Of a DNA stretch of 64,000 bases, positions 5,402 to 60,436 are shown piece by piece. This DNA comes from Virgisporangium aliadipatigenens. GTDB taxonomy: Bacteria > Actinomycetota > Actinomycetes > Mycobacteriales > Micromonosporaceae. Both the position numbers and the translations under genes were made by a program. Each line of letters begins with the position of its first letter. Position 1 is the first letter of the stretch. The DNA lies in contig NZ_BOPF01000019.1 in assembly GCF_016863615.1 (NCBI RefSeq), positions 62,001-126,000 on the forward strand. The letters are read 5' to 3'. The notes beneath the pieces are model-generated. The model saw nothing but the letters and a program-made list of their open reading frames with translations. It searched no databases and had not been told where the DNA came from.

Positions 5402-5617
5402 TCACCTCCCCGCGTCGAGAACGCGGCGCGCGTCGCGTTCCACCATCAGCGGGACGAACGCGTGCACCTGGCTGCCCAGGTACGGCCGTTGCGCCTCCTC
5501 GACCACCTGCCGGATCGCCTCCGCGGGGTACCGGTCGCCGTAGCGGGCGACCAGCCGGTCCAGCACGAAGTGCACGCCGGTGATCTCGAACTCGACGTCG
5601 AATCCCTGTGTCCGCAT
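5402..5617 (-). CDS. Small helical protein (three-helix bundle type)
   Basis: A 71-residue protein predicted mainly helical, with a LDRLVARYGDRYPAEAIRQVVEEA segment giving two amphipathic helices. It resembles the short three-helix-bundle dimerisation proteins seen beside stress genes in actinobacteria, but that assignment is by general pattern only. AGGAAGG precedes the ATG. First gene of the operon with the downstream nitroreductase, divergent from adhE. Confidence 0.65.
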   Translation of the reverse strand: MRTQGFDVEFEITGVHFVLDRLVARYGDRYPAEAIRQVVEEAQRPYLGSQVHAFVPLMVERDARRVLDAGR

Positions 5618-5672
5618 CGTCCCTCACCTTCCTTCCGGTGCCCATTCAGCACGTCGGAGAACGGCATCGACA

Positions 5673-5686
5673 GGGCCGGAGGTCCC
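5673..5686. promoter_or_regulatory. DosR-like box, minus-side copy
   Basis: gggccggaggtccc, an exact match to GGGNCNNNNGNCCC though without the usual central AA/TT. It is 55 bases ahead of the 71-residue gene on the minus strand. Confidence 0.6.
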
Positions 5687-5707
5687 GGTGCCCGGTCCGC
5701 CGCGGAG

Positions 5708-5721
5708 AGGACCTTCGGCCC
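5708..5721. promoter_or_regulatory. DosR-like box, adhE side
   Basis: aggaccttcggccc, one mismatch at the first base. It lies 95 bases ahead of the adhE start. With the copy at 5673 it gives each divergent unit its own site. Confidence 0.55.
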
Positions 5722-5816
5722 TAGGGAGGCGAGCACTTGCGCCGCAGACGGCCCGACGCCGGGCGGGCGACGATCAGGTCGACATCGCATCGATCCGCAC
5801 GGAAGAGGTGAGTTCA

Positions 5817-8446
5817 GTGACGCACGCGCCGACGCCGATCGAGGTGACGGTCGACTCGCTGGTCGCGAACGGGGTGAAGGCCCTGGCCGACTACGCGACG
5901 TACACCCAGGAACAGGTGGACCAGATCGTCGGAAAGGCATCGGTCGCCGCACTGCACCGGCACGGCGCACTGGCGCAGCTCGCCGTCGCGGAGACCGGGC
6001 GCGGAGTGTTCGAGGACAAGGCGGTGAAGAACATTTTCGCCTGTGAGCACGTCACGAACAACATGGCCGGGCTCAAGACCGTCGGCGTGATCCGCCGGGA
6101 CGAGGTCGACGGCATCGTCGAGATCGCCGACCCGGTCGGGGTCGTGTGCGCCCTCACTCCGGTCACCAACCCGACGTCGACGGTCATCTTCAAGGCGTTG
6201 CTGGCGCTCAAGACGCGCAACCCCGTCGTGTTCGCCTTCCACCCCTCGGCGCAGGAGTGCAGCGCCGAGGCGGCGCGGATCGTGCGGGACGCGGCCGTCG
6301 CCGCCGGCGCGCCCGAGCACTGCGTGCAGTGGATCGCGCAGCCGTCGCTGGAAGCGACCCGTGCGCTCATGCACCACCGGGACGTGTCGGTCATCCTGGC
6401 CACCGGCGGCAGCGGCATGGTGCGCGCGGCGTACTCGGCGGGCAAGCCGGCGCTGGGCGTCGGGCCGGGCAACGTTCCGTCCTATGTGGACTCCACCGCC
6501 GACGTCGGCCGGGCGGTGCACGACATCGTGCTGTCCAAGACGTTCGACAACGGCATGATCTGCGCCTCGGAGCAGGCGGTCATCCTGCACGAGCGGGTCT
6601 ACGACGACGCGATCGCCGGCTTCGAACGGCTGCACGCGCGGGTCGTCACGCCCGAGGAGAAGGCGAAGCTGGAGCGGTTCGTCTTCCCGCGCACCGGCGG
6701 CGGCGACTGCCCGGACGTCGCGCTGAACCACGACGTCGTCGGCCGTTCCCCGGTGTGGATCGCCGAACAGGCCGGCTTCAGCGTGCCGCCGGACACCTCG
6801 ATGCTGCTCGTCGAGGTCGGCTCGGTCGGCGACGCGGAGCCGCTCACCCGCGAGAAGCTCTGCCCCGTGCTGGCGGTCCTGCGTGCGCCCACCCGCGAGG
6901 ACGGCTTCCGCTACGCCGAACAGATGGTCGAGTACCACGGTCTCGGGCACAGCGCCGTCATCCACGCCACCGACGCGGCGGCCGTCGAACAGTACGGGCT
7001 GCGCGTCAAGGCGGTGCGGATCATCTCCAACGCGCCCGCGTCGCAGGGCGGCATCGGTGACATCTACAACGCCTACCTGCCCTCGCTGACCCTCGGCTGC
7101 GGCACCTATGGAGCGAACTCCGTGTCGAACAACGTCTCCGCCGTCAACCTGCTCAACATCAAGCGCATCGGCCGGCGGGTCAACAACATGCAGTGGTTCA
7201 AGGTCCCCCCGAAGATCTACTTCGAGCCGAACGCGATCCGCTACTTCCGCGACATGCCGGACGTGCACCGCATCACCATCGTCACCGACCACACCATGAC
7301 GAAGCTCGGCTACGTCGACCGGATCAGCGGGGTGCTGCGCGAACGCGCGGAGCCGGTCACCATCCAGGTGATCGACGACGTCGAGCCCGAACCGAGCATG
7401 GACACCGTGCAGCGCGGCGCGGCGGTGATGCGTTCGTTCCGGCCGGACACCATCATCGCCCTCGGCGGCGGCTCGCCGATGGACGCGGCGAAGGTGATGT
7501 GGCTGCTGTACGAGCACCCGGACATCGAGTTCGCCGACATGCGGGAGAAGTTCTTCGACATCCGCAAGCGGGCGTTCACGTTCCCGACACTGGGCGCGCT
7601 GGCGCAGCTCGTGTGCGTGCCGACCACGTCGGGCACCGGCGCGGAGGTGACGCCGTTCGCGGTCATCACCGACACCGCCACCGGGCAGAAGTACCCGCTC
7701 GCCGACTACGCCCTCACGCCCAGCGTGGCCGTGGTGGACCCGGTGCTCGCCGCCGACCTGCCGGCCGTGGTGACCGCCGACAGCGGATTCGACGCGCTGA
7801 CCCACGCCACCGAGGCGTACGTGTCGGTGTACGCCAACGACTACACCGACGGGCTCGCGCTGCACGCGATCCGGCTCATCTTCGCCAATCTGGAACGGGC
7901 CGTCCACAGTGGAGCGATCGACCCCGTCGCGCGGGAGAAGATGCACAACGCCGGCACCATCGCCGGGATGGCGTTCGGCAACGCGTTCCTCGGCATCGTG
8001 CACGCGATGGCGCACACGCTCGGTGCGACGTTCCACGTGGCGCACGGGCGCACGAACGCGGTGCTGCTGCCGCACGTCATCCGCTACAACGGCACCGTTC
8101 CCGGCAAGCTCACCGGCTGGCCGAAGTACGAGCGCTACACCGCTCCGGAGCGGTTCCAGGACATCGCGCGCACGCTCGGACTGCCCGCCGCCACACCCGA
8201 GGAGGGCGTCGAGTCCTACGCCCGCGCGGTCGAGCGGCTGCGCGACGCGGTCGGCATCGAACCGTCGTTCCAGAAGATCGGCGTCGACGAACGGCAGTAC
8301 GTCGCGGCGCTGCCGCAACAGGCGATGAACGCCTACCTCGACCAGTGCGCGCCGGCGAACCCGCGCATGCCGATGCTCGACGACATGCGGGAGATCATGC
8401 GGGCCGCCTACTACGGCACCACCTCGGACCGGGACGGAGAAGGATC

Positions 8447-8450
<4 letters not shown>
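5817..8450 (+). CDS. adhE: Bifunctional acetaldehyde/alcohol dehydrogenase
   Basis: An 877-residue AdhE, full length for the family. The N-terminal half is a CoA-acylating aldehyde dehydrogenase (acetyl-CoA to acetaldehyde) with the catalytic cysteine in FDNGMICASEQ at about residue 249. The C-terminal half is an iron-dependent alcohol dehydrogenase (acetaldehyde to ethanol) with GGGSPMDAAK, GFDALTHATEAY and FLGIVHAMAHTLGA carrying the metal-binding His residues. Together they regenerate two NAD+ per acetyl-CoA. GTG at 5817 follows GAAGAGGTGAG, and the frame is open far upstream without a ribosome binding site. Its stop overlaps the ppdK start (ATGA), so the two are translationally coupled. 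Two DosR-like boxes lie upstream. Confidence 0.96.
7903..7913. repeat. Iterated palindrome TCCACAGTGGA
   Basis: One copy of the 11-bp iterated palindrome, inside adhE. Confidence 0.6.
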
Positions 8451-11110
<2,660 letters not shown>

Positions 11111-39816: not shown

Positions 39817-39830
39817 GGGCCGATCGGCCC
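39817..39830. promoter_or_regulatory. DosR-like box, perfect palindrome
   Basis: gggccgatcggccc, an exact core match 75 bases ahead of the hydrogenase operon, directly after hypE. Confidence 0.78.
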
Positions 39831-39905
39831 CGGTCGGTCCGGGACCGACGCCCCTGACATGCATCACCGGCGCGGCGGACCGTGGCACCGAAGGGAGGAT
39901 CCGGC

Positions 39906-40988
39906 ATGTTCCAACTTCCCGATCTCGACGGCCTCTTCGCCGCCCTGCACGCGGACGGGTACCGCATCGTCGGCCCGACCGTCTCGGCCGGCGCGATCGT
40001 GCTGGCCGAACTCGACCGGCCGGCCCACCTGCCGTACGGCGTGCGCGTGGAGACGGCGCCCGGGCACTACCGGCTGCGCCCCGGCCCGGCCCGGCAGGCG
40101 TTCACCCACACCGCCGGCCCGCAGGCGTGGAAGGAGTTCCTGCAACCGTCGCCCGAACGGCTGTGGCGGGGCACGCGCGACGACGAGGGCTTCCGCGTCG
40201 ACGCCGCCGAGGAGCCGCCGCGTCCCACCGCCCTGCTCGGTGTGCGCCCGTGCGACCTGCGCGCACTCGGCATCCTGGACGGTGTTCTCGGCGACGGCGA
40301 ACGGTACGCCCGGCGCCGGGCAGCCAGCCTGGTCATCGCCGTGGACTGCACCGAGCCCGGGGAGGCCTGCTTCTGCGTCAGTGCCGGCGGCGGCCCGGCC
40401 GCGCGGTCGGGGTTCGACATCGGGCTCGTCGAACGCCCCGACGGCGGCTACCTCGCCCGCGCCGCGACCGACCGCGGCACCGACCTGCTCGCCCGGCTGG
40501 CGGCGCCGGAGGCGAGCGACGTGGAGGTGACGACCGCGCGCAAGGCGGTCGACGAGGCGGCCGCGCGGATGGGTCGCCGGCTGCCCGAGGTCGACCTGCG
40601 CGACCTGCTGACCCGCCACCGCACCGACGACACCTACTGGTCGGCGATCGCCGAGCGCTGCCTTGCCTGCGCCAACTGCACGATGGTCTGCCCCACCTGC
40701 TTCTGCGCGCGGGTCACCGACGTCACCGACCTGACAGGCGAACACGCCGAACGGTGGCAGCGGGCGGACTCCTGCTTCGACCCCGACTTCAGCTACGTGC
40801 ACGGGGGTCCGGTCCGCTCGTCGACGGGCGCCCGGTACCGGCAGTGGATCAGCCACAAGTTCGCCACCTGGCACGACCAGTTCGGCGGCTCCGGCTGTGT
40901 CGGCTGCGGCCGCTGCGTGGTGTGGTGCCCGGTCGGCATCGACATCACCGCGGAACTGCACGCGCTCGCGCAGCGGGACCGGTCATGA
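39906..40988 (+). CDS. hydB: Group 3b hydrogenase beta subunit (4Fe-4S electron transfer)
   Basis: A 360-residue subunit with two C-terminal ferredoxin-type clusters: CLACANCTMVCPTCFC near residue 254 and CVGCGRCVVWCPVGID near residue 332. Upstream is the GVRPCDLRALGILD region typical of the sulfhydrogenase/anaerobic sulfite reductase A family. It passes electrons between the hydrogenase module and the flavin subunit. AGGGAGG precedes ATG 39906. First of four overlapping genes in the order beta-gamma-small-large, the hydBGDA order of sulfhydrogenases. Confidence 0.93.
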   Translation: MFQLPDLDGLFAALHADGYRIVGPTVSAGAIVLAELDRPAHLPYGVRVETAPGHYRLRPGPARQAFTHTAGPQAWKEFLQPSPERLWRGTRDDEGFRVDAAEEPPRPTALLGVRPCDLRALGILDGVLGDGERYARRRAASLVIAVDCTEPGEACFCVSAGGGPAARSGFDIGLVERPDGGYLARAATDRGTDLLARLAAPEASDVEVTTARKAVDEAAARMGRRLPEVDLRDLLTRHRTDDTYWSAIAERCLACANCTMVCPTCFCARVTDVTDLTGEHAERWQRADSCFDPDFSYVHGGPVRSSTGARYRQWISHKFATWHDQFGGSGCVGCGRCVVWCPVGIDITAELHALAQRDRS

Positions 40989-41803
40989 ACACCGACCCGG
41001 CCCCGCACCGCTACCGCGTCGTCGTCAACCGCGCCGAGACGCCCGACACCTCGACGCTCACGCTCCGGCCGGTCGACGCGCCGCTGCCGGCGTTCCTGCC
41101 GGGTCAGTTCGCGATGCTCTACGCCTTCGGGATCGGTGAGATCCCGGTGTCGGTGAGTGGGCGGTGCGGCGCCGGCGGCCTGATGCACACCGTCCGCGCC
41201 GTCGGAGCGGTCTCCCGCGCCGTGCACGACTGCCCGCCCGGTGGGTTCCTCGGCGTGCGTGGCCCGTTCGGGCGGCCGTGGACGCTGCCGGCCCCCCGCG
41301 ACGCGGACGTCGTGGTCGTCGCCGGTGGCCTGGGCCTGGCGCCGCTGCACCCCCTGGTGCGTCACCTGCGCGACCACCGCGTCCGCTACCGCAGCGTGGC
41401 GGTCCTCATCGGCGCCCGGACCCCGGACGACCTTCTGTACCGCGCCGAGTACCGGCGCTGGCGCGCCGACGGTCTGGACGTGCGGGTCACGGTGGACCGG
41501 CCGCTGCCGGGGTGGAACGGCGCCACCGGGCTGGTCACCGCGTTGTTGACGGGGCTGAGGCCGCAGCCCGGCCGGTGCGCCGGATACGTGTGCGGGCCGG
41601 AGGTGATGATGCGTCCGGTCGTGCGGAGCCTCGCCACGATCGGTATGCCCACGTCCCGCGTCGAACTGTCGCTGGAACGCAACATGCAGTGCGGTACCGG
41701 CCACTGTGGACACTGCCAGCTCGGGCCGCTGTTCGTCTGTCGCGACGGGCCGGTCGTCCCGGCGACCGCCGCGGAGAACCTTCTCGCCGTCCGGGAGTTG
41801 TGA
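40985..41803 (+). CDS. hydG: Group 3b hydrogenase gamma subunit (FAD/NAD(P)-binding)
   Basis: A 272-residue diaphorase subunit of the ferredoxin-NADP reductase fold. It has the FAD-binding [22 protein letters not shown], the NAD(P) loop [16 protein letters not shown], and a C-terminal 2Fe-2S cluster in [17 protein letters not shown]. It links NAD(P)H with the iron-sulfur subunit. Its ATG is nested in the hydB stop, and its own stop overlaps the next start. Confidence 0.93.
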
Positions 41804-42588
41804 TGGCCACCGAGCCCGCGCGCCCCTCGCTCGCCGTCTGGAAGTTCGCCTCCTGCGACGGCTGCCAGCTCACCCTGCTCGACTGCGGCGACGCGCTCCT
41901 CACCCTGGCGGCGCGGCTGCACATCGCCGCGTTCCCCGAGGCCAGCAGCATGATCGAACCGGGGCCTTACGACGTGTCGCTGGTCGAGGGTTCGATCACC
42001 ACCGAGGAGGACGCCGCCCGCATCCGGGACATCCGCGCGCGGTCGACGCTGCTCGTGGCGATCGGCGCCTGCGCCACGGCCGGCGGTATCCAGGCGCTGC
42101 GCGACCTCGCCGACGTCGACGAGTTCCGCGCGCAGGTCTACCCGCATCCCGAGTACGTGCGGAGCCTGGCGACGGCCACGCCGATCTCGGCCCACGTGCC
42201 GGTGGACCTCGAACTGCACGGCTGCCCGATCGACCGCGGTCAACTCGTGGAGGTACTCGGCGCGCTGCTCGCCGGCCGCAAGCCGGACCTGCCCGTGCAC
42301 AGCGTCTGCGCGCAGTGCAAGGCGCGCGGCACGCCGTGCCTGCCGGTCGTCGCCGGCGTGCCCTGCCTGGGGCCGGTGACGCGGGCCGGCTGCGGCGCGC
42401 TGTGCCCGGCCTACGGGCGCGGCTGCTTCGGTTGTTTCGGTCCGGTCGAGCGACCGAACACCCGCGCCCTCGTCGCGCTGCTGCGCCACCAGGGCATGTC
42501 ACCGGCCGACATCGGTCGGGTGTTCCGCACCTACACCGCCACGACGGCGCAGTTCCGCGCCGCTGCCGAAGAGGGGGCGCGGTCATGA
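41803..42588 (+). CDS. hydD: Group 3b [NiFe] hydrogenase small subunit
   Basis: A 261-residue small subunit of the group 3b type. The proximal-cluster cysteines lie in [13 protein letters not shown] near residue 18 and GACATAGG near residue 87. ELHGCPID and the C-terminal block with [26 protein letters not shown] and [10 protein letters not shown] supply the further 4Fe-4S clusters. There is no Tat signal, so the enzyme is cytoplasmic. ATG within TGATG of hydG. Confidence 0.95.
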
Positions 42589-43883
42589 CCCACCGTTCGC
42601 GCCGCCTGCTGAAGGTGCCCGCGCTGACCCGGGTCGAGGGTGAGGGCGCCCTGCACGTGGAACTGACCGGCGACACGGTCACCGAACTGCGGCTGGACAT
42701 CTACGAACCGCCGCGCTACTTCGAGGCGCTGCTACGCGGTCGCCGGTACACGGAACCGCCCGACATCACCGCCCGTATCTGCGGCATCTGCCCGGTGGCG
42801 TACCAGATGAGCGCGTGCGCCGCGATCGAGGACGCCTGTGGCGTGGAGGTCGACGACCGGGTGGCCGAACTGCGCCGGCTACTCTACTGCGGGGAATGGA
42901 TCGCCAGCCACGCCCTGCACATCCACCTGTTGCACGCACCGGACTTCCTCGGCTGCGCGAACGTCGTCGAGCTGGCCCGCCGGCACCGGCCGGAGGTGGA
43001 GCGCGGGCTGGCCCTCAAACAGGCCGGCAACGCGGTGCTGGAACTGGTCGGCGGGCGGGCGATCCATCCGTTCAACGTGCGCCTGGGCGGGTTCCACCGG
43101 GCGCCGTCCGCGGCCGAGTTGCGCACGCTCGCCGAGCAGACCCTGCGTCCGGCGCGCGACGCCGCGCTCGCCTGCGTGGAGTGGGTGTCCACGTTCGACT
43201 TCCCGGATGTCGCGGCCACGCCGGAACTGCTGGCGCTGACCGACCGCCGCTATCCGCTGGACCGCGGCTCGCCGCGCACCTCCTCCGCCGTGGCCTTCCC
43301 GGTGCGCGCGTTCGAGGAGCACGTCGTCGAGGAGCAGGTGCCGCACTCCACCGCACTGCACGCCCGGCTGGTGGGCGGCGGCGCGTACCTGACCGGCCCG
43401 CTGGCCCGCTACGCCCTCAACCGCGGCGTGTTGTCCCCGCTGGCCCGCGAGGCCGCCGACGCCGCGGGGCTCGGTGCGCGGTGCGACAACCCGTTCCGCA
43501 GCATCGTCGTGCGCGCCGTGGAACTCGTCTACGCGATCGACGAGGCCCTGCGCATCATCGACGCCTACGAGCCGCCGCGACCGCCGGCGATCGACGTGGC
43601 GCCGCGCGCCGGCATCGGCTACGGCGCCACCGAGGCTCCCCGGGGCGTCCTGTTCCACCGCTACGAACTGGCCGCCGACGGGTCGGTGCGCACGGCGCGC
43701 ATCGTGCCGCCGACGGCGCAGAACCAGGCGACGATCGAGGCCGACCTGCGCGCGTTCGTCCAGGAGAACCTCGACATGCCCGACGACGACCTCGCCGCCG
43801 CATGCGAACGGGTGGTCCGCAACCACGACCCGTGCATCTCCTGCGCCACCCACTTCCTGCGCCTGACCAGGACCCACCGCTGA
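42585..43883 (+). CDS. hydA: Group 3b [NiFe] hydrogenase large subunit
   Basis: A 432-residue catalytic subunit. The nickel ligands are in [11 protein letters not shown] near residue 65 and DPCISCATH near the C-terminus. Only nine residues follow the final His (FLRLTRTHR), a short tail for the maturation protease to remove. The group 3b enzymes evolve or oxidise H2 with NAD(P)H. In Mycobacterium smegmatis the homologous Hyh is hypoxia-induced and DosR-controlled, which fits the box upstream. hypA, hypB and a maturation protease are not in the window. Confidence 0.95.
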
Positions 43884-50185: not shown

Positions 50186-50274
50186 GACGACCTCCTCGAA
50201 GGCTTTCGATGCTTCCGCCGTGACGCTAACGGCGCGTCCGCCCACGGCGTCAGTGCTGCTGGTCCCCGCGCGCC

Positions 50275-50288
50275 CGGACCTTGGTCCG
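50275..50288. promoter_or_regulatory. DosR-like palindrome with altered outer bases
   Basis: cggaccttggtccg, a perfect palindrome sharing GGACCTTGGTCC with the cydA site at 54449; 89 bases ahead of the CBS gene. Confidence 0.4.
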
Positions 50289-50299
50289 CCGCCTCCGTA

Positions 50300-50313
50300 G
50301 GGCCGATGTGCCC
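50300..50313. promoter_or_regulatory. DosR-like box, one mismatch
   Basis: gggccgatgtgccc, 114 bases ahead of the CBS gene in the divergent region. Confidence 0.5.
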
Positions 50314-50384
50314 TGGGCGTGAGCGTGCGCGAGGAACGGCGCGGTCGTCACCTCCGACGGCGGTTGGAGGGCCTGATCGGGTTC

Positions 50385-50398
50385 GGGTCCAAAGTCCC
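50385..50398. promoter_or_regulatory. DosR-like box
   Basis: gggtccaaagtccc, an exact core match closest in sequence to the mycobacterial box; 86 bases ahead of the USP-pflB-pflA operon. Confidence 0.75.
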
Positions 50399-50484
50399 CC
50401 CGCCCGATGGCGGTCGGCCCTGCGGGGATCGACGCCGCCGGATCAGGCTGGAGGCGAAGAGCGCGAGTCCCGAGGGAGGACGCC

Positions 50485-51333
50485 ATGGAGCGCAACGAGA
50501 TCGTCGTCGGGGTGGACGGTTCCACCCAGAGCCGCGCCGCACTGCGCTTCGCGGCCGCCGAGGCCGCCCGTCACGACGCGGCGCTGCGCATCGTCGCGGC
50601 GTACGAGACGGACGTCCGGGCGGCCCGGTTCGGTGGGGCGGAACGGCTGGAGCAGGTCGTCCGCGAGCTCTCCGAGGAGATCGTCGCCGAGGCCGTGGCG
50701 GAGGTCCGCACCGCAACGGCCACCGGCGCCGCGATCGCGGGAACGCCCGGGCACGTGCTCCTGGACGCCTCGCGCGGCGCGCGCCTGCTGGTCGTCGGCA
50801 ACCGCGGCCACGGCGGCTTCGGCAGCCTGCTGCTCGGCTCGGTGAGCCAGCACGTGGCGCTGAACGCACAGGTGCCGGTCGTCGTGGTGCGCGGCAACGC
50901 CGAACCGGCCGGCCGTCCGGTCATCGCCGGCGTGGACACGCTCGAGCGCGCCGACGCCGTCCTGGGCGTCGCCTTCGCGGAGGCTGCCGCGCGCGGCACG
51001 GGTGTCGTGGCGGTGCACGCCTACCGGGTGCCGGTGCCGGCGTGGACCATCACGTACGCGCCGATCCCGGGCGAGGCCGAGGCGATCCGCCAGGCGGCAG
51101 CCGAGGACCTGGACACCGCGCTGGCGTCGTGGCGGGAGAAGTACCCGAGCGTGCCGGTGGAGGCGTTGGTGGGCCGGGGCAGCGCCGCCCGCATGCTGGT
51201 CGACATCTCGCACAGCGGCGCCCTGGTCGTGGTCGGCTCGCGCGGCCACAACGCGACCGTCGGTGCCCTGCTGGGCTCGGTCGCGACGCAGCTGCTGCAC
51301 CACTCCGACAGCCCCGTGCTGATCGCGCACTGA
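50485..51333 (+). CDS. Universal stress protein, tandem UspA domains
   Basis: A 282-residue tandem USP with both loops intact: GNRGHGGFGSLLLGSVS and GSRGHNATVGALLGSVA. It starts EIVVGVDGSTQSRAALRFAA after GAGGGAGGACGCC. Only 29 bases separate it from pflB, and there is no box in that gap, so it is the first gene of a USP-pflB-pflA operon. The pairing may link energy status (ATP/AMP binding) to the fermentation enzyme, but that is speculation. Confidence 0.93.
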   Translation: MERNEIVVGVDGSTQSRAALRFAAAEAARHDAALRIVAAYETDVRAARFGGAERLEQVVRELSEEIVAEAVAEVRTATATGAAIAGTPGHVLLDASRGARLLVVGNRGHGGFGSLLLGSVSQHVALNAQVPVVVVRGNAEPAGRPVIAGVDTLERADAVLGVAFAEAAARGTGVVAVHAYRVPVPAWTITYAPIPGEAEAIRQAAAEDLDTALASWREKYPSVPVEALVGRGSAARMLVDISHSGALVVVGSRGHNATVGALLGSVATQLLHHSDSPVLIAH

Positions 51334-51336
51334 CCC

Positions 51337-51347
51337 TCCACTGTGGA
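51337..51347. repeat. Iterated palindrome TCCACTGTGGA
   Basis: Copy in the short USP-pflB spacer. Confidence 0.6.
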
Positions 51348-51362
51348 TAGAAGGGCTGACCG

Positions 51363-53618
51363 ATGACCGAGACCGTGACCACCGTCGCACCCACCGCCTG
51401 GCGCGGGTTCCAGGGCGGCCGCTGGCGGGACCGCGTCGACGTGGCCGACTTCGTGCGCGCCAACGTGCGCCCGTACAGCGGCGACGCGGCTTTCCTGGCC
51501 GGGCCGACCGGCCGCACGAGCGCGCTGTGGAACGCCCTCACGGCGATGTTCCCCGTCGAGCGCGAACGCGGTGTGTACGACGTGGACGCCACGACCCCGG
51601 CGGCCATCACCGCGCACGCGCCCGGCTACATCGACCGGGACAACGAGCTCATCGTCGGCCTGCAGACCGACGCGCCGCTGAAGCGGGCCATCATGCCGTT
51701 CGGCGGGCTGCGCATGGTCGAGTCGTCGCTGGCCGCCTACGGCTACGAACTGGACCCGACGCTGCGGCGCGTCTTCACCGAGTACCGCAAGACGCACAAC
51801 GCCGGCGTGTTCGACGCCTACACGCCGCAGATCCTGGCCGCGCGCAAGGCCGGCATCGTCACCGGCCTGCCGGACGCCTACGGCCGGGGTCGCATCATCG
51901 GCGACTACCGGCGGGTGGCGCTGTACGGCGTGGACTTCCTCGTCGAGGCGAAGCGGCTGGAGAAGTCGGGGCTGGACGAGCGCCCGGCCATCGCCGACGT
52001 GATCCGTGACCGCGAGGAGCTGTCCGAGCAGATCCGCGCATTGGGCGAACTGAAGCAGATGGCCGCCTCGTACGGGTTCGACATCTCCGGGCCGGCGCGC
52101 ACCGCGCACGAGGCGGTGCAGTGGCTGTACTTCGCCTACCTCGCGGCGACCAAGGAGCAGAACGGCGCGGCCATGTCGCTCGGCCGCACGGCGACGTTCC
52201 TCGACTGCTACCTCGAACGGGACATCGCCGAGGGGCGCCTCACCGAGGAACGCGCGCAGGAGCTCATCGACGACCTCGTCATCAAGCTGCGCATCATCCG
52301 GTTCCTGCGCACGCCCGAGTACGACCAGCTCTTCTCCGGCGATCCCACGTGGGTCACCGAGTCGCTGGGCGGCATGTCGGACGACGGCCGCACGCTGGTG
52401 ACCCGCACGTCGTTCCGCTATCTGCAGACGCTCTACAACCTGGGGCCGGCTCCGGAGCCGAACCTGACCGTGCTGTGGTCGCCCTCGCTGCCGGCCGGCT
52501 TCAAGCGGTTCTGCGCCCAGGTGTCGCTGGACACCAGCGCCATCCAGTACGAGAACGACGAACTGCTGCGCCCCTACCTCGGCGACGACGCGGCGATCGC
52601 CTGCTGCGTCTCGGGCATGCGCGTCGGGCGGGACATGCAGTTCTTCGGCGCCCGGGTGAACGCGGCCAAGGCGCTGCTGTACGCGGTCAACGGCGGGCGC
52701 GACGAGGTGAGCGGCGCACAGGTGGCCCCGCCGAGCGCACCGTTGACCGGTGACGTGCTCGAATACGACGCGGTGCTGGCCGCCTACGACCGCACGCTCG
52801 ACTGGCTCGCCGCGACGTATGTCGACGCCCTCAACACCATCCACTACATGCACGACAGGTACGACTACGAACGCCTCGAGATGGCGCTGCACGACTACCC
52901 CGTGCGCCGCTTCCTGGCGTGCGGCATCGCCGGCCTCTCCGTCGCGGTCGACAGCCTCTCGGCCATCCGCTACGCGACGGTCACGCCGGTGCGCGACGCG
53001 GCCAGCGGCCTCGTCGTCGACTACGTGGTCGACGGGGAGTTCCCGACGTACGGCAACGACGACGACCGCGCGGACGACATCGCGGTGTGGCTGGTGCAGG
53101 CGTTCATGGACAAGGTGCGCAGCCGCCCCACCTACCGGGACGCCATCCACACCCAGTCGGTGCTGACCATCACGTCGAACGTCGTCTACGGCCGGCACAC
53201 CGGCAACACGCCCGACGGCCGGCGGGCCGGCGAGCCGTTCGCCCCGGGCGCCAACCCGATGAACGGCCGCGACCGCCACGGGCTCGTCGCCAGCGCCGTG
53301 TCGGTGGCGAAGCTGCCGTTCGAGAGCGCGCGCGACGGCATCTCGCTGACGAGCACCATCACCCCGGACGGCCTCGGCCGCACCCGGGACGAGCGGATCA
53401 CCAACCTGGTCGGCGTGCTCGACGGCTACACCACCGCCGGCGGCTTCCACATGAACGTCAACGTGCTCGACCGGGAGACCCTGCTCGACGCGATGGCCCA
53501 TCCGGAGAAGTACCCCCAGCTGACCGTGCGCGTCTCCGGCTACGCCGTCAACTTCGTGCGCCTCACCCCGGAACAGCAGCGCGACGTCATCAACCGCACG
53601 TTCCACGACAAGTCATGA
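51363..53618 (+). CDS. pflB: Formate acetyltransferase (pyruvate formate-lyase)
   Basis: A 751-residue glycyl-radical enzyme converting pyruvate and CoA to acetyl-CoA and formate. The catalytic cysteine pair sits in IACCVSGM (residues 414-415), and the glycyl radical site in RVSGYAVNF (Gly about 726, 25 residues from the end). [21 protein letters not shown] and [23 protein letters not shown] are also classic PflB features. The enzyme is oxygen-labile, which is striking in an actinomycete. AGAAGGG lies ahead of ATG 51363. pflA overlaps its stop. Confidence 0.97.
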
Positions 53619-54361
53619 CCGCACGCACGTGGCGCGAGGTCCCGGGAGTGCTGCACTCCTGGGACCTCTCCACCGGCGTCGACGGGCCGGGCACCAGGTT
53701 CGTGGCGTTCCTCGCCGGGTGCCCGTTGCGCTGCCTCTACTGCCAGAACCCGGACACGTGGCACATCCGCGACGGCGATGCCACCAACGCCGGTCAGGTC
53801 ATCGACCGCGCCGCCCGCTACGGCCCGTTCACGACCCGGGGCGGCGGGCTCACGCTCAGCGGCGGCGAACCGCTGCGCCAGCCGGAGTTCGCCGGGGCGC
53901 TGCTGACCGGCGCGAAGGAGGCCGGCCTGCACACCGCCCTGGACACCTCCGGCTTCCTCGGCGCGCGGGCGAGCGACGCTCTTCTCTCGCACACGGATCT
54001 GGTGCTGCTGGACATCAAGTCCTGGAATCCCGTCACCTACAAACGGGTCACCGGCGTCGAACTCGAACCCACGCTCGCCTTCGCCGAACGCGTCGCCGGC
54101 CTGGGTGTGCCGATGTGGATCCGGTTCGTCCTCGTGCCGGGGCTCACCGACGCGCCGGAGAACGTCGCCGGGCTCGCCCGCTTCGCCGCCGGACTGTCCA
54201 CAGTGGAACGCGTGGACGTGTTGCCGTTCCACCGGATGGGCGCCGCCAAGTACGAACGCCTCGGAATACCGTTTCCACTCGAGGACGTGGCGCCTCCCCG
54301 TTCCGAGCTGATCGCCCGCGTGCGCGAACAGTTCGCCGCGGCGGGGCTCGTCGTCAGCTGA
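53615..54361 (+). CDS. pflA: Pyruvate formate-lyase activating enzyme
   Basis: A 248-residue radical SAM enzyme that installs the glycyl radical on PflB. The cluster motif is CPLRCLYC near residue 34, with [18 protein letters not shown] for SAM binding and [13 protein letters not shown] near the end. ATG 53615 is nested in the pflB stop (ATGA). It needs a one-electron donor; the flavodoxin at 18666 is a candidate within the same island. Confidence 0.96.
54197..54207. repeat. Iterated palindrome TCCACAGTGGA
   Basis: Copy inside pflA. Confidence 0.6.
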
Positions 54362-54448
54362 CCGGGTCGCCAACCGGATCACATCAGTGACAGGCCGCGG
54401 CAGCCCCTTCGGAGGTCGCGGTCGACAGCACGGCGGTCCGTGGCGGAC

Positions 54449-54462
54449 GGGACCTTGGTCCC
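54449..54462. promoter_or_regulatory. DosR-like box, perfect palindrome
   Basis: gggaccttggtccc, an exact core match 57 bases ahead of the cydA start; it supports GTG 54520 over the upstream GTG 54472, which would leave only 9 bases after the box. Confidence 0.78.
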
Positions 54463-54519
54463 GCGCCCTCGGTGCGGGTGACTCTGGGGACGGCCGCGGT
54501 CGTTGTTGATCCTGATCGG

Positions 54520-55917
54520 GTGGATGCCTTGGACCTGGCGCGGTGGCAGTTCGGCATCACCACCGTGTACCACTTCATTTTCGTGCCGATCACCATCGGA
54601 CTGTCGGCGCTCGTCGCCGGCCTGCAGACCGCGTGGGTGCGGACCGGGAAGGTCGAGTACCTGCGGGCGACGAAGTTCTGGGGGAAGCTGTTCCTGATCA
54701 ACTTCGCCATGGGCGTAGTGACGGGCATCGTGCAGGAGTTCCAGTTCGGGATGAACTGGTCCGCCTACTCGCGCTTCGTCGGCGACATCTTCGGCGCGCC
54801 GCTGGCGATCGAGGGGCTGCTGGCGTTCTTCCTCGAGTCGACGTTCCTCGGATTGTGGATCTTCGGGTGGGACCGGCTGCCCAAGAGGCTGCACCTCGCG
54901 GCGATCTGGCTCGCCTCGATCGGCACCCTGCTGTCGGCGTACTTCATCCTCGCGGCGAATTCCTGGATGCAGCACCCGGTCGGGTACCGCTTCAACGCCG
55001 ACACCGGCCGCGCCGAACTGACCGACTTCTGGGCCGTCCTGACGAATTCCACCACGCTGGTCACGTTCCCGCACACCGTCACCGCGTGTTTCCTGACGGC
55101 CGGCGCGCTGATGCTGGCCGTGAGCGCGTGGCACCTGCGGCGCGGCCGGCAGCCGGAGGTGTTCCGCCCGGGGCTGCGCCTCGGCGCCTGGGTCGTCATC
55201 GTGGCGGCGATCGGCGTCTTCGTCACCGGTGACCTGCAGGCGCGCATCATGACCGAACAGCAGCCGATGAAGATGGCCGCCGCGGAGGCGCTCTACGAGA
55301 CGGACAAACCGGCGAGCTTCTCCATCTTCACGATCGGCTCGCTGGACGGGCGCGAGGAGGTCGCGAGCGTGCGCATCCCGTCGCTGTTGTCGTTCATGGC
55401 GACCGGGTCGCCGTCCGGCGAGGTCGAGGGCATCAACGACATCCAGGCGCAGTACGCGGCGCGGTACGGCGAGGGTGACTACGTGCCCTACGTTCCCGTC
55501 ACGTACTGGTCGTTCCGGCTGATGATCGGGTTCGGGGCGTTGGCCGCGCTGATCGCCGCGCTGGCGCTGTGGCGGACCCGACGCGGACGGGTCCACAGTG
55601 GACGATGGCTGTGGATCGCGGCGACGTGGGCCGTGTCGTTGCCGCTGCTGGCCAACTCCTTCGGCTGGATCTTCACGGAGATGGGCCGCCAGCCGTGGTC
55701 GGTGTTCGGGGTGTTCAGGACCGCGGACGGGGTGTCGCCGAGCGTCTCCCCCGGCGAGGCCGCCACGTCGCTGACCGTGCTGACGCTGCTCTACGGGGTC
55801 CTGGCCGTCGTGGAGTTCGGGCTGCTGCTGCGCTACTCGCGCGCGGGCGCGCCCGAGATCGAATCCCCGGCGGAGTCGGACGACGAGGCCGACCGTCCCC
55901 TCGCGTTCGCGTACTGA
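54520..55917 (+). CDS. cydA: Cytochrome bd oxidase subunit I
   Basis: A 465-residue subunit I of the bd-type quinol oxidase, holding hemes b558, b595 and d. It has DALDLARWQFGITTVYHFIFVPITIG at the N-terminus (heme-ligand His), the QEFQFGMNWSAYSRFVGDIFG helix, the quinol-site region around EQQPMKMAAAEALYETD (short Q-loop) and GRQPWSVFGV near the C-terminus. GTG 54520 matches the family start although no clear ribosome binding site precedes it. It takes O2 to water with very high affinity. Confidence 0.96.
   Translation: MDALDLARWQFGITTVYHFIFVPITIGLSALVAGLQTAWVRTGKVEYLRATKFWGKLFLINFAMGVVTGIVQEFQFGMNWSAYSRFVGDIFGAPLAIEGLLAFFLESTFLGLWIFGWDRLPKRLHLAAIWLASIGTLLSAYFILAANSWMQHPVGYRFNADTGRAELTDFWAVLTNSTTLVTFPHTVTACFLTAGALMLAVSAWHLRRGRQPEVFRPGLRLGAWVVIVAAIGVFVTGDLQARIMTEQQPMKMAAAEALYETDKPASFSIFTIGSLDGREEVASVRIPSLLSFMATGSPSGEVEGINDIQAQYAARYGEGDYVPYVPVTYWSFRLMIGFGALAALIAALALWRTRRGRVHSGRWLWIAATWAVSLPLLANSFGWIFTEMGRQPWSVFGVFRTADGVSPSVSPGEAATSLTVLTLLYGVLAVVEFGLLLRYSRAGAPEIESPAESDDEADRPLAFAY
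55592..55602. repeat. Iterated palindrome TCCACAGTGGA
   Basis: Copy inside cydA. Confidence 0.6.
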
Positions 55918-55929
55918 GGAGCCTTTGCG

Positions 55930-56934
55930 ATGGAACTGACAACCGTCTGGTTCGCCCTCATCGGGGTGCTGTGGGCCGGGTACTTCGTGCTCGAGGGGTT
56001 CGACTTCGGGGTGGGCATGCTGCTGCCCCTGCTCGGCCGCGACGAGACCCGCCGGCGCGTGCTCATCAACACGATCGGCCCGGTCTGGGACGGCAACGAG
56101 GTGTGGGTGCTGGTGGCCGGCGGTGCCACCTTCGCGGCGTTCCCCGAGTGGTACGCCACCCTCTTCTCCGGCTTCTACCTGCCGCTGCTGCTCATCCTGG
56201 TGGCGCTGATCCTGCGCGGCGTCGCCTTCGAGTACCGCGGCAAGGTGGACAGTCCACAGTGGAGACGGCGCTGGGACGCGTGCATCATCGGCGGGAGCCT
56301 CGTGCCGGCCCTGCTGTGGGGTGTGGCGTTCGGCAACATCCTGCGCGGAGTCCGGCTCGACGCGCGGCACGAGTACGTCGGCGGCTTCTTCGACCTCCTC
56401 AACCCCTATGCGCTGCTCGGCGGTGCCACGACGTTGACGCTGTTCCTCTTGCACGGCACCGTCTTCGTGGCGTTGAAGACCGACGGGCCGATCCGCCGGG
56501 ACGCCGCGCGCCTCGCCGTCCGCCTGGCCGGCCCGACCGTGGTGATCGCCGCCGGGTTCCTGCTCTGGACGCAGCTGCGCGACGACGACACCGGCGGCTG
56601 GATCCTCTCCGGCCTCGCGGCGCTCGTCCTGCTCGCGGCCGTCGCCGCGATCCTGCGCGAACGCGAGGGGCTCGCCTTCGTCGGCACCGCCCTGACGATC
56701 GTGCTCGCCACGGCGGCGCTGTTCGTCACCCTGTTCCCCCAAGTGATGCCGACGACGCTGCCCGGCGGCGAAGGGCTGACGGTGACCAACGCGGCCTCGA
56801 CGCCCTACACCCTCACGATCATGACCTGGGTCGCGATCGTCTTCACCCCGCTCGTGCTGTGCTACCAGGCGTGGACGTACTGGGTGTTCCGCAAGCGGAT
56901 CACCGTCGAGCAGATCCCGCCGGTGCACGCGTGA
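55930..56934 (+). CDS. cydB: Cytochrome bd oxidase subunit II
   Basis: A 334-residue subunit II with about eight membrane helices. It begins TVWFALIGVLWAGYFVLEGFDFGVGMLLPLLGR and includes GPVWDGNEVWVLVAGGATFAAFPEWYATLFSGFYLP. GAGGAGCC precedes the ATG, 12 bases after cydA. Its stop overlaps the cydD GTG. Confidence 0.96.
   Translation: MELTTVWFALIGVLWAGYFVLEGFDFGVGMLLPLLGRDETRRRVLINTIGPVWDGNEVWVLVAGGATFAAFPEWYATLFSGFYLPLLLILVALILRGVAFEYRGKVDSPQWRRRWDACIIGGSLVPALLWGVAFGNILRGVRLDARHEYVGGFFDLLNPYALLGGATTLTLFLLHGTVFVALKTDGPIRRDAARLAVRLAGPTVVIAAGFLLWTQLRDDDTGGWILSGLAALVLLAAVAAILREREGLAFVGTALTIVLATAALFVTLFPQVMPTTLPGGEGLTVTNAASTPYTLTIMTWVAIVFTPLVLCYQAWTYWVFRKRITVEQIPPVHA
56253..56263. repeat. Iterated palindrome TCCACAGTGGA
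   Basis: Copy inside cydB. Confidence 0.6.
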
Positions 56935-58571
56935 AGCCCCTCGACCCCCGGCTGTTGCGCCACGCCGGGGCGAGCCGCGGATTCCTGATCCTGTCGGTCG
57001 TGCTCGGCGTGACGCTCGCCGGACTCGTGGTGGCCCAGGCGAGCCTGCTCGCCACCGGCATCACCGCCGTCTTCCTGGACGGGGCGCAGGTGTCCGCTCT
57101 CGGTCCCGTGCTCGCCGGCCTCGCCGCCGTCGTCGTCGCCCGCGCGGCGGTGGCGTGGGCGCAGGAGGTCGCGGCGGTCCGGGCGAGCGCGGCGGTCAAG
57201 AGCCAACTGCGGCGGGCGTTGCTGGCGCGGCTCGTCGCGGACGGGCCGGCCGGCAGCGGTCGCAGCGGCGAACTGGCCACGCTCGCCGTGCGCGGCCTCG
57301 ACGCGCTCGACGGCTACTTCGCGCGTTACCTGCCGCAGCTCGTGCTCGCCCTCGCGGTGCCGGCCGTCGTGCTCACCCGCATCGCGCCGGCCGACCTGCT
57401 CGCCGCCGCCACGATCGTGCTGACGCTGCCGCTGATCCCGCTGTTCATGGCGCTCGTCGGCATGCACACCGAGGCGACGAACCGGCGGCAGTTCCGGACT
57501 CTGGCCCGGCTGTCGCACCACTTCCTCGACGTGGTCGCGGGCCTGCCGACGCTGCGCGTCTTCGGCCGGGCCCGGGCCCAGGAGGCGACCATCCGCGAGG
57601 CCGGCGAGCAGTACCGGCGGCTGACCGTGCGCACGTTGCGGGTCGCGTTCCTGTCGGCTCTGGTGCTGGAGCTGCTCGCCACCCTTTCCGTCGCGCTCGT
57701 CGCGGTCGGCATCGGGTTGCGGTTGGTATCGGGGGAACTGACGTTGCACACCGCGCTCGTCGTGCTGATCCTGGCGCCCGAGGCGTACCTGCCGCTGCGG
57801 CAGGTCGGGGCCCAGTTCCACGCGAGCGCGGAGGGCCTGGCGGCGGCGAACGACGTCTTCGCGGTCCTCGACGCGCCCCCCGCACCCTCCGGCACCGCGC
57901 CAGCATCCTTCGGCGCAATCCGCTTCGACTGCGTCACGGTCGAACGCGCCGGGCGGGACCGGCCGGGCCTGCCACCGTTCAGCGCCACGGTGCTCCCCGG
58001 TGAGTTCGTGGCGCTGACCGGGCCGAGCGGCTGCGGCAAGTCCACGGTGCTCGACGTGCTGCTCGGCTTCACCGCGCCGAGCGATGGCGCCGTGACCGTC
58101 GACGGACGACCACTGTCCGAAGTGGACACCGCTGCCTGGCGCCGGACGGTCGCGTGGCTCCCCCAGCGTCCCACCCTCTTCGCCGGGACGATCCGCGACA
58201 ACATCCGCCTCGGCGACCCGCACGCCGCCCCGCGACAGGTCCGCACCGCGGCCGCGTCGGCCGGTGCGCTGGAGTTCGTCTCCGCCCTGCCGAACGGCTT
58301 CGACACGGTGCTCGCCGACGACGGGGCGGGGCTGTCGGCCGGGCAGCGCCAGCGGATCGCGCTCGCAAGGGTGTTCCTGCGTGACGCCCCGCTGGTGCTG
58401 CTCGACGAGCCGACCGCGAACCTCGACGCCGAGACCGCCGCCGTCGTGCGCGACGGCATCCGCCGGCTCGCGGTCGGGCGTACCGTCATCATGGCCGCAC
58501 ACCGGCCGGACCTGATCGCGCTTGCCGACCGGGAACTCCGCGTCGGCGCGGTCGCGGAGCCGGCCCGATGA
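56931..58571 (+). CDS. cydD: ABC transporter CydD, cytochrome bd assembly
   Basis: A 546-residue half-transporter with a six-helix membrane domain (1-310) and an ATPase domain: Walker A GPSGCGKST, signature LSAGQRQR, Walker B LVLLDEPT. With CydC it forms the heterodimer needed for bd oxidase assembly, exporting cysteine/glutathione in E. coli. GTG 56931 overlaps the cydB stop; its own stop overlaps cydC. Part of cydABDC. Confidence 0.94.
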   Translation: MKPLDPRLLRHAGASRGFLILSVVLGVTLAGLVVAQASLLATGITAVFLDGAQVSALGPVLAGLAAVVVARAAVAWAQEVAAVRASAAVKSQLRRALLARLVADGPAGSGRSGELATLAVRGLDALDGYFARYLPQLVLALAVPAVVLTRIAPADLLAAATIVLTLPLIPLFMALVGMHTEATNRRQFRTLARLSHHFLDVVAGLPTLRVFGRARAQEATIREAGEQYRRLTVRTLRVAFLSALVLELLATLSVALVAVGIGLRLVSGELTLHTALVVLILAPEAYLPLRQVGAQFHASAEGLAAANDVFAVLDAPPAPSGTAPASFGAIRFDCVTVERAGRDRPGLPPFSATVLPGEFVALTGPSGCGKSTVLDVLLGFTAPSDGAVTVDGRPLSEVDTAAWRRTVAWLPQRPTLFAGTIRDNIRLGDPHAAPRQVRTAAASAGALEFVSALPNGFDTVLADDGAGLSAGQRQRIALARVFLRDAPLVLLDEPTANLDAETAAVVRDGIRRLAVGRTVIMAAHRPDLIALADRELRVGAVAEPAR

Positions 58572-60436
58572 CCCGACCCGTGGCTCCGCGGCAGGCGGCT
58601 GCCACCGCCGCCACGACCACTGCCCCCGACCCGGCCGGCAAGGCGAGCCCGGCGCACACGCCCGACGAGATGACAGCGAGCGGGGCAACGGCTGACCCGA
58701 GCGGGGCGACCACGGACATGAGCCCGCCGACGGTTGACGCGAGCGGGGTGACCGCGGGCGCGAGCGGGGTGACGCGTGTCGCCGGCGGGTGGGCCGGTGT
58801 GCTCCTGACCGCCGCGCGGCCGGCCGGGCCGATGCTCGTGCTCGCCGTCGTCGCGGGGGTGGGCGCGGCGGGTGCCGCGATCGGGCTCATCGCCACATCC
58901 GCGTGGCTCATCTCGCGCGCCGCGCTGCACCCGCCGGTGCTGCACCTGATGGTGGCGATCGTGGCCGTGCGGGCGTTCGGGATCTCCCGGGGCGTACTGC
59001 GCTACCTGGAACGACTCGTCGGGCACGACGCGGCGCTGCGCACACTGACCGAGCTGCGGGTGCGGGTGTTCAGGGCGCTGGCCGAGCGCGCGCCGGCCGG
59101 GCTGGCGGCGTTCCGGCGGGCGGATCTGGTGCAGCGCCTCGTCGCCGATGTCGACGCCGTCGTGGACGTCCTGGTGCGGGTGCTGCTGCCGGTGACGATC
59201 GCCGCCGTCGTCGGTGCCGGTTCGGTGCTGCTGGTGGGCTCGATGCTGCCGGCCGCCGGGGTCGCGCTGGCCGTGGGGCTGCTCGTCGTGTGCGTCGGGG
59301 TGCCGCTGCTCCAGGGGCTGGTCGCGCGGCGCGCCGACGGCCTGCTGGCGCCGCTGCGCGCCGAACTTTCCACCGGCGTCGTGGACCTGCTGCACGGCCT
59401 GCCCGACCTGATCGCCCACGGCGCGGCCGGGGCCCGGCTGGCGGCGGTGGCGGACACCGACGCGCGGCTGCGCGCCGCCGAACGCCGCTCGGCCGCGGCC
59501 ACCGGCGTCGGCGCGGCGGTGACCGTGCTGAGTTCCGGGATCGGCATGCTCGTCGGGCTGGTCGCCGGCGCGGTGGCCGTGCGTGCCGGGCGGCTCGACG
59601 GCGAACTACTCGCCGTCGTCGTGCTCACGCCGCCTGCCGTGTTCGAGGCGGTCTCCGGTGTGCCCGCCGCCGCGCAGCGCCTCGCCGGGGCACGGGAGGC
59701 GTTGCGCCGCATCGCCGCCGTCTTTGCCGCACCACTGCCCGCGACCGAACCCGCCGACCCCGCGCCGCTGCCGACCGGTCCGCACACCCTGCGGCTGGCG
59801 GGGGTGCACGCCGGCTGGTCCGCCGACCGGCCGGTGCTGCGCGGGTTCGACCTGACGCTCGAACCCGGGCAGCGGATCGCGCTCGTCGGGCCGAGCGGAG
59901 CCGGCAAGAGCACCGTGGCTGCGCTGCTCGTGCGCTTCCTCGACCCGACCGCCGGCCGGATCACCCTCGACGGCGTGGACCTGCGCGACCTGCGCGGCGA
60001 TGACGTGCGCCAGGTGATCGGATATCTCGGCGAGGACGCCTATCTCTTCGACACCACGGTCGAACGCAACCTGCGCGTCGCGCGCGCCGACGCCACCACG
60101 GCCGAGTTGGAGGAGGCGCTACGCGCCGCGCGGCTGCTCGACTGGGCGCGTGCGCTCCCGCAGGGCCTCGGCACCCCGGTCGGCGAGCACGGCGTGCTGC
60201 TGTCCGGCGGCGAACAGCGGCGGCTCGCACTGGCCCGTGCGCTGCTGATGCCGTTCCCCATCATGATCTTGGACGAGCCGACGGAACACCTCGACGAACG
60301 GACGGCGGCCGAACTGACCGCGGACCTGTTGAGGGCCACGCGCGGGCGGACCGTGCTGCTCATCACCCACCGTACCGAGGGTCTGTCCGATGTGGACAGT
60401 GTGGTCCACGTCGGACGGGGATGCGCGCCGAGGTAG
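58568..60436 (+). CDS. cydC: ABC transporter CydC, cytochrome bd assembly, with N-terminal repeat region
   Basis: A 622-residue half-transporter: membrane domain from about residue 78 to 390, then ATPase with GPSGAGKST, LSGGEQRR and MILDEPT. The first 75 residues are a hydrophilic Ala/Thr/Ser/Pro segment absent from typical CydC. It is encoded in part by four copies of a GC-rich 14-mer and reads as repeated (A/P)SG(A/V)T units. The real start could lie later in this region, but ATG 58568 is nested in the cydD stop. Confidence 0.92.
   Translation: MTRPVAPRQAAATAATTTAPDPAGKASPAHTPDEMTASGATADPSGATTDMSPPTVDASGVTAGASGVTRVAGGWAGVLLTAARPAGPMLVLAVVAGVGAAGAAIGLIATSAWLISRAALHPPVLHLMVAIVAVRAFGISRGVLRYLERLVGHDAALRTLTELRVRVFRALAERAPAGLAAFRRADLVQRLVADVDAVVDVLVRVLLPVTIAAVVGAGSVLLVGSMLPAAGVALAVGLLVVCVGVPLLQGLVARRADGLLAPLRAELSTGVVDLLHGLPDLIAHGAAGARLAAVADTDARLRAAERRSAAATGVGAAVTVLSSGIGMLVGLVAGAVAVRAGRLDGELLAVVVLTPPAVFEAVSGVPAAAQRLAGAREALRRIAAVFAAPLPATEPADPAPLPTGPHTLRLAGVHAGWSADRPVLRGFDLTLEPGQRIALVGPSGAGKSTVAALLVRFLDPTAGRITLDGVDLRDLRGDDVRQVIGYLGEDAYLFDTTVERNLRVARADATTAELEEALRAARLLDWARALPQGLGTPVGEHGVLLSGGEQRRLALARALLMPFPIMILDEPTEHLDERTAAELTADLLRATRGRTVLLITHRTEGLSDVDSVVHVGRGCAPR
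58676..58773 (+). repeat. Four-copy 14-mer repeat within cydC
   Basis: Copies near gcgagcggggtgac at 58676, 58697, 58739 and 58760, each encoding an SG(A/V)T phrase. The last two copies are identical. Confidence 0.65.

Follow-up and report, generated by a model that had tools for sequence, protein, structure and literature searches.

Which regulator controls the pyruvate formate-lyase (PFL) genes of an actinomycete, and which metabolism would they serve? The question is raised by a 64-kb stretch of Virgisporangium aliadipatigenens DNA (C19:62001-126000, that is, contig C19 of a 10.29-Mb genome; hereafter the window), in which the gene of a universal stress protein (USP) is followed by pflB and pflA and preceded by a palindrome of the DosR/DevR/OsdR type. 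We propose, with a probability of about 0.8, that usp-pflBA is one low-oxygen-induced transcription unit under a DosR-type regulator and provides the pyruvate-splitting step of a fermentation set encoded in the surrounding hypoxia island. DosR-type control of a usp-pflBA operon, which an earlier note on this DNA had suggested, is strongly supported by the genome and by comparison with relatives, and it stands as a prediction from sequence.

The usp-pflBA genes, their palindrome and the regulator genes

The first gene of the putative operon (50485-51333, + strand) encodes a USP with two Usp stretches (PF00582, 151 bits). Its start is most probably 50485 rather than the first ATG, 50407, and a ribosome-binding-site-like GAGGGAGG lies just upstream of 50485. 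The second gene, pflB (51363-53618, + strand), encodes a formate C-acetyltransferase (PFL) of 751 residues that passes the TIGR01255 equivalog cut-off over its full length (1150 bits, cut-off 994.2) and aligns with E. coli PFL (PDB 1h16) over residues 10-748 with 1045 bits. In this alignment Cys414-Cys415, within 'aiaccvs', and Gly726, within 'rvsgya', correspond to the catalytic residues of the E. coli enzyme. The third gene, pflA (53615-54361, + strand), encodes a PFL-activating radical-SAM enzyme that also passes its equivalog cut-off over the full length (TIGR02493, 288.8 bits, cut-off 231.75), carries the motif CPLRCLYC and matches the PFL activase structures 8fo0 and 3c8f. The adjacent Cys pair, the near-C-terminal glycyl-radical Gly and the activase CX3CX2C motif are all present, as had been read from the letters, and the family models identify PflB as a true pyruvate formate-lyase and PflA as a true activase. 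Both reading frames are intact, and pflB has a strong coding character. The coordinates also bear out the close spacing: 29 bases separate the USP stop (51333) from the pflB start (51363), and pflB and pflA overlap by 4 bases (ATGA). A scan of 50250-54600 showed neither a sigma-70-like promoter nor a terminator pattern, although such a scan has little power at high GC.

The palindrome GGGTCCAAAGTCCC (50385-50398, no strand assigned) lies 87 bp before the USP start codon. Scored against a 20-letter DosR consensus, it shares 16 letters and is the top-scoring site of the window; no score of 16 or more occurred in 20 first-order random sequences of window length. The box upstream of usp-pflBA is thus above chance. 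OsdR is presented as a functional DevR orthologue, with the consensus AGGGCCGATCGGCCCT, in the excerpt of PMC5069765 that was available, and this published consensus and the 50385 box share the frame GGGNC-N4-GNCCC. The window contains 22 sites with this looser frame, compared to 5 with the reversed pattern. A called gene start, taken at the reading-frame starts that we chose, lies within 320 bp downstream of 14 of the 22 looser boxes and is missing behind the other 8; genes behind such boxes include those of a [NiFe]-hydrogenase, WS/DGAT, aldolase, flavodoxin, USP and cydA. The stricter A/T-centred form, GGGNCNWWNGNCCC, has 71 sites genome-wide, 15 of which fall inside the 64-kb window (binomial P of about 5e-19).

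A devR orthologue (C19:55629-56264) lies outside the window, about 6 kb to its left, which puts it 57 kb from pflB. Its product matches the DevR structure 3c3w with 265 bits, the next best match being VraR (153 bits). A second devR, at C3:421315-421944, is 89% identical to the C19 copy. Near this second copy, a kinase gene (L150:8051-9802) encodes two GAF stretches, HisKA_3 and HATPase. Among solved GAF domains, the best matches of the first stretch are 2vzw, from a probable histidine kinase response regulator, and DevS 2y8h, and the kinase may bind heme. The genome holds a DevR orthologue and a DevS-like GAF sensor kinase; therefore both two-component parts needed by the box are present.

Further metabolic genes surround the two devR copies. 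At the C3 locus (L150:8051-13483, about 419-424.5 kb), a phosphoketolase gene is divergent from devR, with a DosR-type box between the two, and a glycogen phosphorylase gene adjoins. Beside the C19 copy (C19 43-60 kb; L093:3663-10942 and L093:16272-19145), genes of a PorAB-like 2-oxoacid:ferredoxin oxidoreductase match their models below the cut-offs, and the same region encodes a PntA-like transhydrogenase, judged by eye, and a GNAT-fused acyl-CoA synthetase. This C19 set could add ATP-yielding acetate formation to the hypoxia response.

DosR-type boxes at pflB in other actinomycetes

PFL turned up in 48 of the 393 Actinomycetes genomes sampled, spread over 18 of 123 genera. The organism's own family has the enzyme in 46 of 150 genomes (15 of 42 genera); these include the three listed for the organism's genus, two of which have 7 and 10% contamination. 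These counts reject the rarity of PFL in actinomycetes. The statement that the enzyme is unusual in this group was overstated: it is a minority gene, not an oddity.

For the comparison of upstream regions, 129 actinomycete pflB loci were pooled from the window, named genomes, the class sample and the family sample. Half of the 80 loci retained from named genomes (40, counted from titles) belong to Actinomycetota; 49 pflB places were listed in the family, 40 of which were used. The family places outside these 40 comprise three already present in other sets (G000, G082, G175), G501 in two pieces, G536, and the intact G396, G456 and G533. Three loci with less than 400 bp of upstream DNA (L106, L107, L109) were dropped, and one of the remaining 126 was retained per 90% protein-identity cluster, which gave 80 loci; the three were kept in the class-sample box scan (48 loci) and in the association of box and devR. 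Named and unnamed loci overlap partly, and the identity filter handles this overlap in the 80-locus test only.

The A/T-centred box occurs within 300 bp of pflB at 24 of the 80 loci, compared to one in the next 300 bp upstream and none in either of two coding stretches. The 15 control palindromes of the same make-up were each found at 0 or 1 of the 80 loci; here the counts of the six highest of the 16 palindromes, reported in falling order, set the bounds for the rest. With clusters at 80% identity the box is near pflB at 11 of 29 loci and the other palindromes at none. The looser box is present at 33 of 80 loci and is the weaker test, because control palindromes of this form score as high as 10 of 80. 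In the 80-locus test the window is scored as lacking a box near pflB, since its own box precedes the USP gene. Boxes near pflB were seen in Streptomycetaceae, the window's family, Cellulomonadaceae, Microbacteriaceae and others. Of the 47 other class genomes with PFL, 38 have a devR match, and 16 of these carry the looser box no more than 300 bp from pflB, compared to none of the 9 that lack such a match (one-sided P 0.015). Within one family (f34) the figures are 2 of 3 and 0 of 5. No description of a recurring pflB box across the class was found in the open-licence full texts that were searched.

A USP gene before pflB also recurs. A same-strand USP frame ends within 450 bp before pflB at 4 of 48 class loci, 6 of 40 named loci (two overlapping sets) and 8 of 40 family loci. 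In all nine class and named cases measured, the gap between the two genes exceeds 140 bp, and the box lies in the gap in eight; the named cases with a measured gap are Streptomyces. At two family loci (L168, L175) the USP frame reaches or enters the pflB start, a close coupling as in the window, and their boxes lie about 540-560 bp before pflB, with none nearer. The window is a tighter version of this recurring USP-pflB pair, with the box ahead of USP.

In a 96-row PflB tree, the 57 actinomycete rows need a single label change, with a support of 50 for the branch at their base. Recent transfer from Bacillota or Pseudomonadota was considered and rejected on this grouping. A single origin of actinomycete pflB is weakly supported; at a branch support of 50 the tree neither excludes nor proves it. 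Streptomycetaceae have a second, separate pflB clade (L008, L015, L021, L022, L034, L038, L039, L052; branch support 86), with adhE directly upstream of pflB in L008 and a box near pflB in L039 and L052. Signs of decay were seen in two family genomes, with pflB in two pieces (G501) or reduced to its C-terminal part (G536), and in one class genome (G016), whose PFL match is without the glycyl-radical end.

Fermentation genes of the island and the fate of formate

Two further genes of pyruvate and acetyl-CoA metabolism lie in the left part of the window. The bifunctional acetaldehyde/alcohol dehydrogenase gene adhE (5580-8450, + strand; NF010378, 1353 bits, cut-off 951) probably starts downstream of 5580, because the family match begins at residue 88. 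It is followed by the gene of pyruvate, phosphate dikinase (PPDK; 8453-11110, + strand; TIGR01828, 1243 bits, cut-off 843). AdhE is the usual sink for PFL-derived acetyl-CoA. An acetate kinase is encoded outside the window (PF00871, 419 bits, at C6:57363), so that AdhE and acetate kinase, two members of an enterobacterial-type mixed-acid module, are both found in the genome. The [NiFe]-hydrogenase genes (39882-43883, + strand) are group 3b-like (Hyd3-like), sulfhydrogenase alpha models being matched below their cut-offs, and boxes at 39817 and 39841 lie directly upstream of them. The transcription unit that follows pflA (54520-60436, + strand) contains cydA, cydB and two ABC transporter genes interpreted as cydD and cydC; cydABDC corresponds by family matches to cytochrome bd oxidase plus its assembly transporter, the cydA start and the names cydD and cydC being probable assignments. 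The DosR-type box GGGACCTTGGTCCC (54449-54462, no strand assigned) lies 58 bp before the likely cydA start, GTG 54520. In M. smegmatis, Hyd3 and cytochrome bd go up in hypoxia, according to the part of PMC2799521 that was available. The window also encodes four nitroreductase-like proteins, five further USPs, CBS and BON proteins, flavodoxin, WS/DGAT, GAPDH, HSP20, HypF and an AIRS-domain (HypE-like) protein. This gene set suits a fermentation to ethanol, acetate and formate with release of H2 at low oxygen, and the flux would follow these routes. Elsewhere in the genome, at L101:1605-13999 (C16, about 37.6-50 kb), very large reading frames adjoin one another, some with a common GVYVHTGPM-like start.

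The fate of formate had been called open for want of a visible formate dehydrogenase. The genome searches proposed in the earlier note, for focA, formate dehydrogenase and a YfiD-like protein, returned no FNT match, one formate dehydrogenase alpha subunit and no YfiD. The alpha subunit is encoded on another contig (C7:194350-196371; 913 bits, cut-off 666) and is the only one over the cut-off genome-wide; the enzyme is probably NAD-linked, because a Nuo51-type subunit adjoins. Since this separate formate dehydrogenase exists, the question of what becomes of formate is less open than had been claimed. However, the 18 kb surrounding it contain no A/T-centred box, and among the family's 46 PFL genomes just 6 have a formate dehydrogenase over the cut-off (19 of the 150 family genomes overall); neither of two genus mates has one. 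Excretion would therefore still be likely and is the simplest reading. A role of the C7 enzyme in an oxalate pathway was considered and is possible at most, the neighbouring thiamine-pyrophosphate enzyme and major facilitator transporter matching oxalate models below the cut-offs. On contig C3 (L151:6787-9087, about 461.8-464.1 kb), a molybdopterin oxidoreductase, a relative of nitrate reductase and formate dehydrogenase, matches below the cut-offs, and a DosR-like site lies about 150 bp upstream, within another reading frame.

Two other members of the enterobacterial-type module, FocA and YfiD/GrcA, were not found. FocA/FNT (PF01226) has no match genome-wide, while 3 of 14 control genomes match, E. 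coli included. Within the class, an FNT-family match occurs in 8 of the 48 PFL genomes compared to 68 of all 393, which is no enrichment; as neither FNT nor formate dehydrogenase is enriched in PFL genomes, a dedicated formate outlet was rejected. The glycyl-radical domain (PF01228) of PflB is the only one in the genome. The earlier observation that a spare glycyl-radical subunit is missing was correct, yet the absence is general. Gly_radical matches were obtained in 47 of the 48 class PFL genomes, all within PFL frames (two of them split, and G086 with two PFLs); the remaining genome, G016, has none, its PFL match stopping at query residue 651. Most or all of the sampled actinomycete PFL genomes are without FocA and YfiD, so their absence here is not special.

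Proposed mechanism, alternatives and meaning

The proposed sequence of events starts with oxygen leaving the sensor GAF domain of the DevS-like kinase, which would then phosphorylate DevR. DevR would bind the 50385 palindrome and bring about transcription through USP into pflBA. PflA, with S-adenosylmethionine and a [4Fe-4S] cluster, would set the glycyl radical on Gly726 of PflB, and PflB would convert pyruvate and CoA into acetyl-CoA and formate without forming NADH. Part of the acetyl-CoA would be reduced by AdhE to ethanol, which re-oxidises NADH, and another part could yield acetate and ATP through acetate kinase. The Hyd3-like hydrogenase may vent further reductant as H2. Formate would mostly leave the cell, or else undergo oxidation by the separate formate dehydrogenase, provided that this is expressed. 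The neighbouring cydABDC genes, with their own box, may lower residual oxygen and so shield the oxygen-labile PFL, and the USP may likewise be protective.

Several observations weigh against this proposal. The 50385 box sits 978 bp from pflB, compared to mostly 50-250 bp for the near-pflB boxes of relatives, so that read-through from USP must be assumed. The A/T-centred box is missing within 300 bp at 56 of the 80 pflB genes, and the looser form at 47; the looser form is also less specific, other palindromes reaching 10 of 80 and 9 of 48, and it occurs between -1500 and -1200 at 7 of 48 class loci. The association with devR ignores kinship and depends on the chosen E-value threshold of 1e-55; in addition, the upstream DNA available for G048, one of the nine genomes lacking devR, was only about 216 bp long. 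Reversing the A/T-centred pattern still yields 49 sites in the genome, compared to 71 for the pattern itself, which makes many single sites probable background, but not the cluster in the window. AdhE is encoded 43 kb from pflB and lies within about 9.5 kb of it at only 2 of 40 family loci, and the strict site nearest to adhE, at 5673, falls inside the called reading frame and may or may not precede the true start. Finally, FocA and a spare glycyl-radical protein are missing from the genome.

The gap of 29 bases between USP and pflB offers little room for a promoter, and there is no second DosR-type site with 0-1 mismatch between the 50385 box and pflB. It is thus unlikely that pflBA is driven from its own promoter within the USP gene, or by another regulator (Rex or Crp/FNR type), with the DosR box serving USP alone. 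In several Streptomyces relatives (L005, L044, L116, L120 and others), a separate box for pflB does lie between the two genes, so that the USP promoter need not drive pfl in every case. As to other regulators, a CRP-like site at 51374, barely within the pflB frame, deviates at 2 of 10 positions and is one of four such in the window, and the region before cydA holds an FNR-like site (2 of 10 mismatches, 54506) and a Rex-like site (5 of 14, 54367); however, the best matches in 50245-51370 have 6 of 14 mismatches for Rex and 4 of 10 for CRP and FNR. With these weak sites only, control by Rex, CRP or FNR was rejected, and the conservation of the DosR-type box at pflB in relatives argues for the regulator proposed above.

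It is less probable still that the role of PFL is not fermentative but biosynthetic, that it supplies C1 units (formate for purines), or that it works in the reverse direction. Anabolic use of the enzyme occurs in other bacteria, and the lack of enrichment of formate dehydrogenase and FocA with PFL means that no dedicated formate disposal is seen in the group. Here, however, pflB lies in a hypoxia island with AdhE, PPDK, hydrogenase and cyd, and acetate kinase is present in the genome. In relatives, adhE is about 10 kb or nearer to pflB at 7 of 48 class and 11 of 40 named loci (overlapping sets), yet rarely in the family, as noted. A silent, unused remnant is highly improbable: the S. lividans activase is listed as an N-terminal fragment, a putative pseudogene, in the excerpt of PMC6302529 at hand, and pflB is decayed in the three relatives mentioned above, but here both genes are intact with all motifs, pflB is strongly coding and the box is intact.

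The system resembles the mycobacterial DosR/DevR regulon in its orthologous regulator (the 3c3w match) and its DevS-like kinase. That regulon holds USP, WS/DGAT, HSP20 and nitroreductase genes, all of which are represented in the window. Unlike in this organism, PFL appears rare in mycobacteria, with two genomes (G259, G347) in the family f2, probably the mycobacterial one. The enterobacterial focA-pflB-pflA genes, with yfiD, are under FNR/ArcA control. Enzyme pair and PFL-AdhE chemistry are the same, whereas here a DosR-type box replaces FNR/ArcA control, USP replaces FocA upstream, and FocA and YfiD are absent. The OsdR (SCO0204) regulon of S. coelicolor and S. lividans is similar in that a DevR-type regulator, USPs, nitroreductase, PPDK and a putative PFL share one island, with a matching box frame in the portion of PMC5069765 consulted. 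The putative PFL gene of S. lividans, SLIV_36865 (SCO0206), is near osdR by locus number and belongs to an OsdR-correlated group in the available part of PMC6302529. PFL under a DosR-type regulon is thus not a new kind of system, since the S. lividans gene appears there to be co-expressed with the OsdR regulon. Unlike S. lividans with its activase fragment, the window has intact pflB and pflA directly behind USP, and unlike the OsdR island, as far as the excerpts describe it, AdhE and a Hyd3-like hydrogenase share the island. A paper dealing with PFL, DosR and actinobacteria places PFL under FNR only, in the part of its text that was available (PMC4601167).

The presence of a box near pflB in several families, and its absence in the nine PFL genomes without a devR match, lead us to consider a broader possibility. 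PFL fermentation may be an ancestral DosR/DevR target across Actinomycetes, in a role like that of FNR/ArcA in enterobacteria, and the mycobacterial dormancy regulon would then be a remnant left after the fermentative arm was lost; we regard this as tentative, with the odds somewhat against it. That PFL can belong to a DosR-type regulon is already known, and the class-wide link between pflB and DosR would be of real interest if experimentally shown. DosR has mostly been studied as a dormancy switch. If it also drives the oxygen-labile PFL in many actinomycetes, the dormancy response would be a metabolic programme, testable by simple products, and the recurring box provides a ready list of strains for such tests. 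Many actinomycetes treated as strict aerobes may then make formate, ethanol and H2 at low oxygen.

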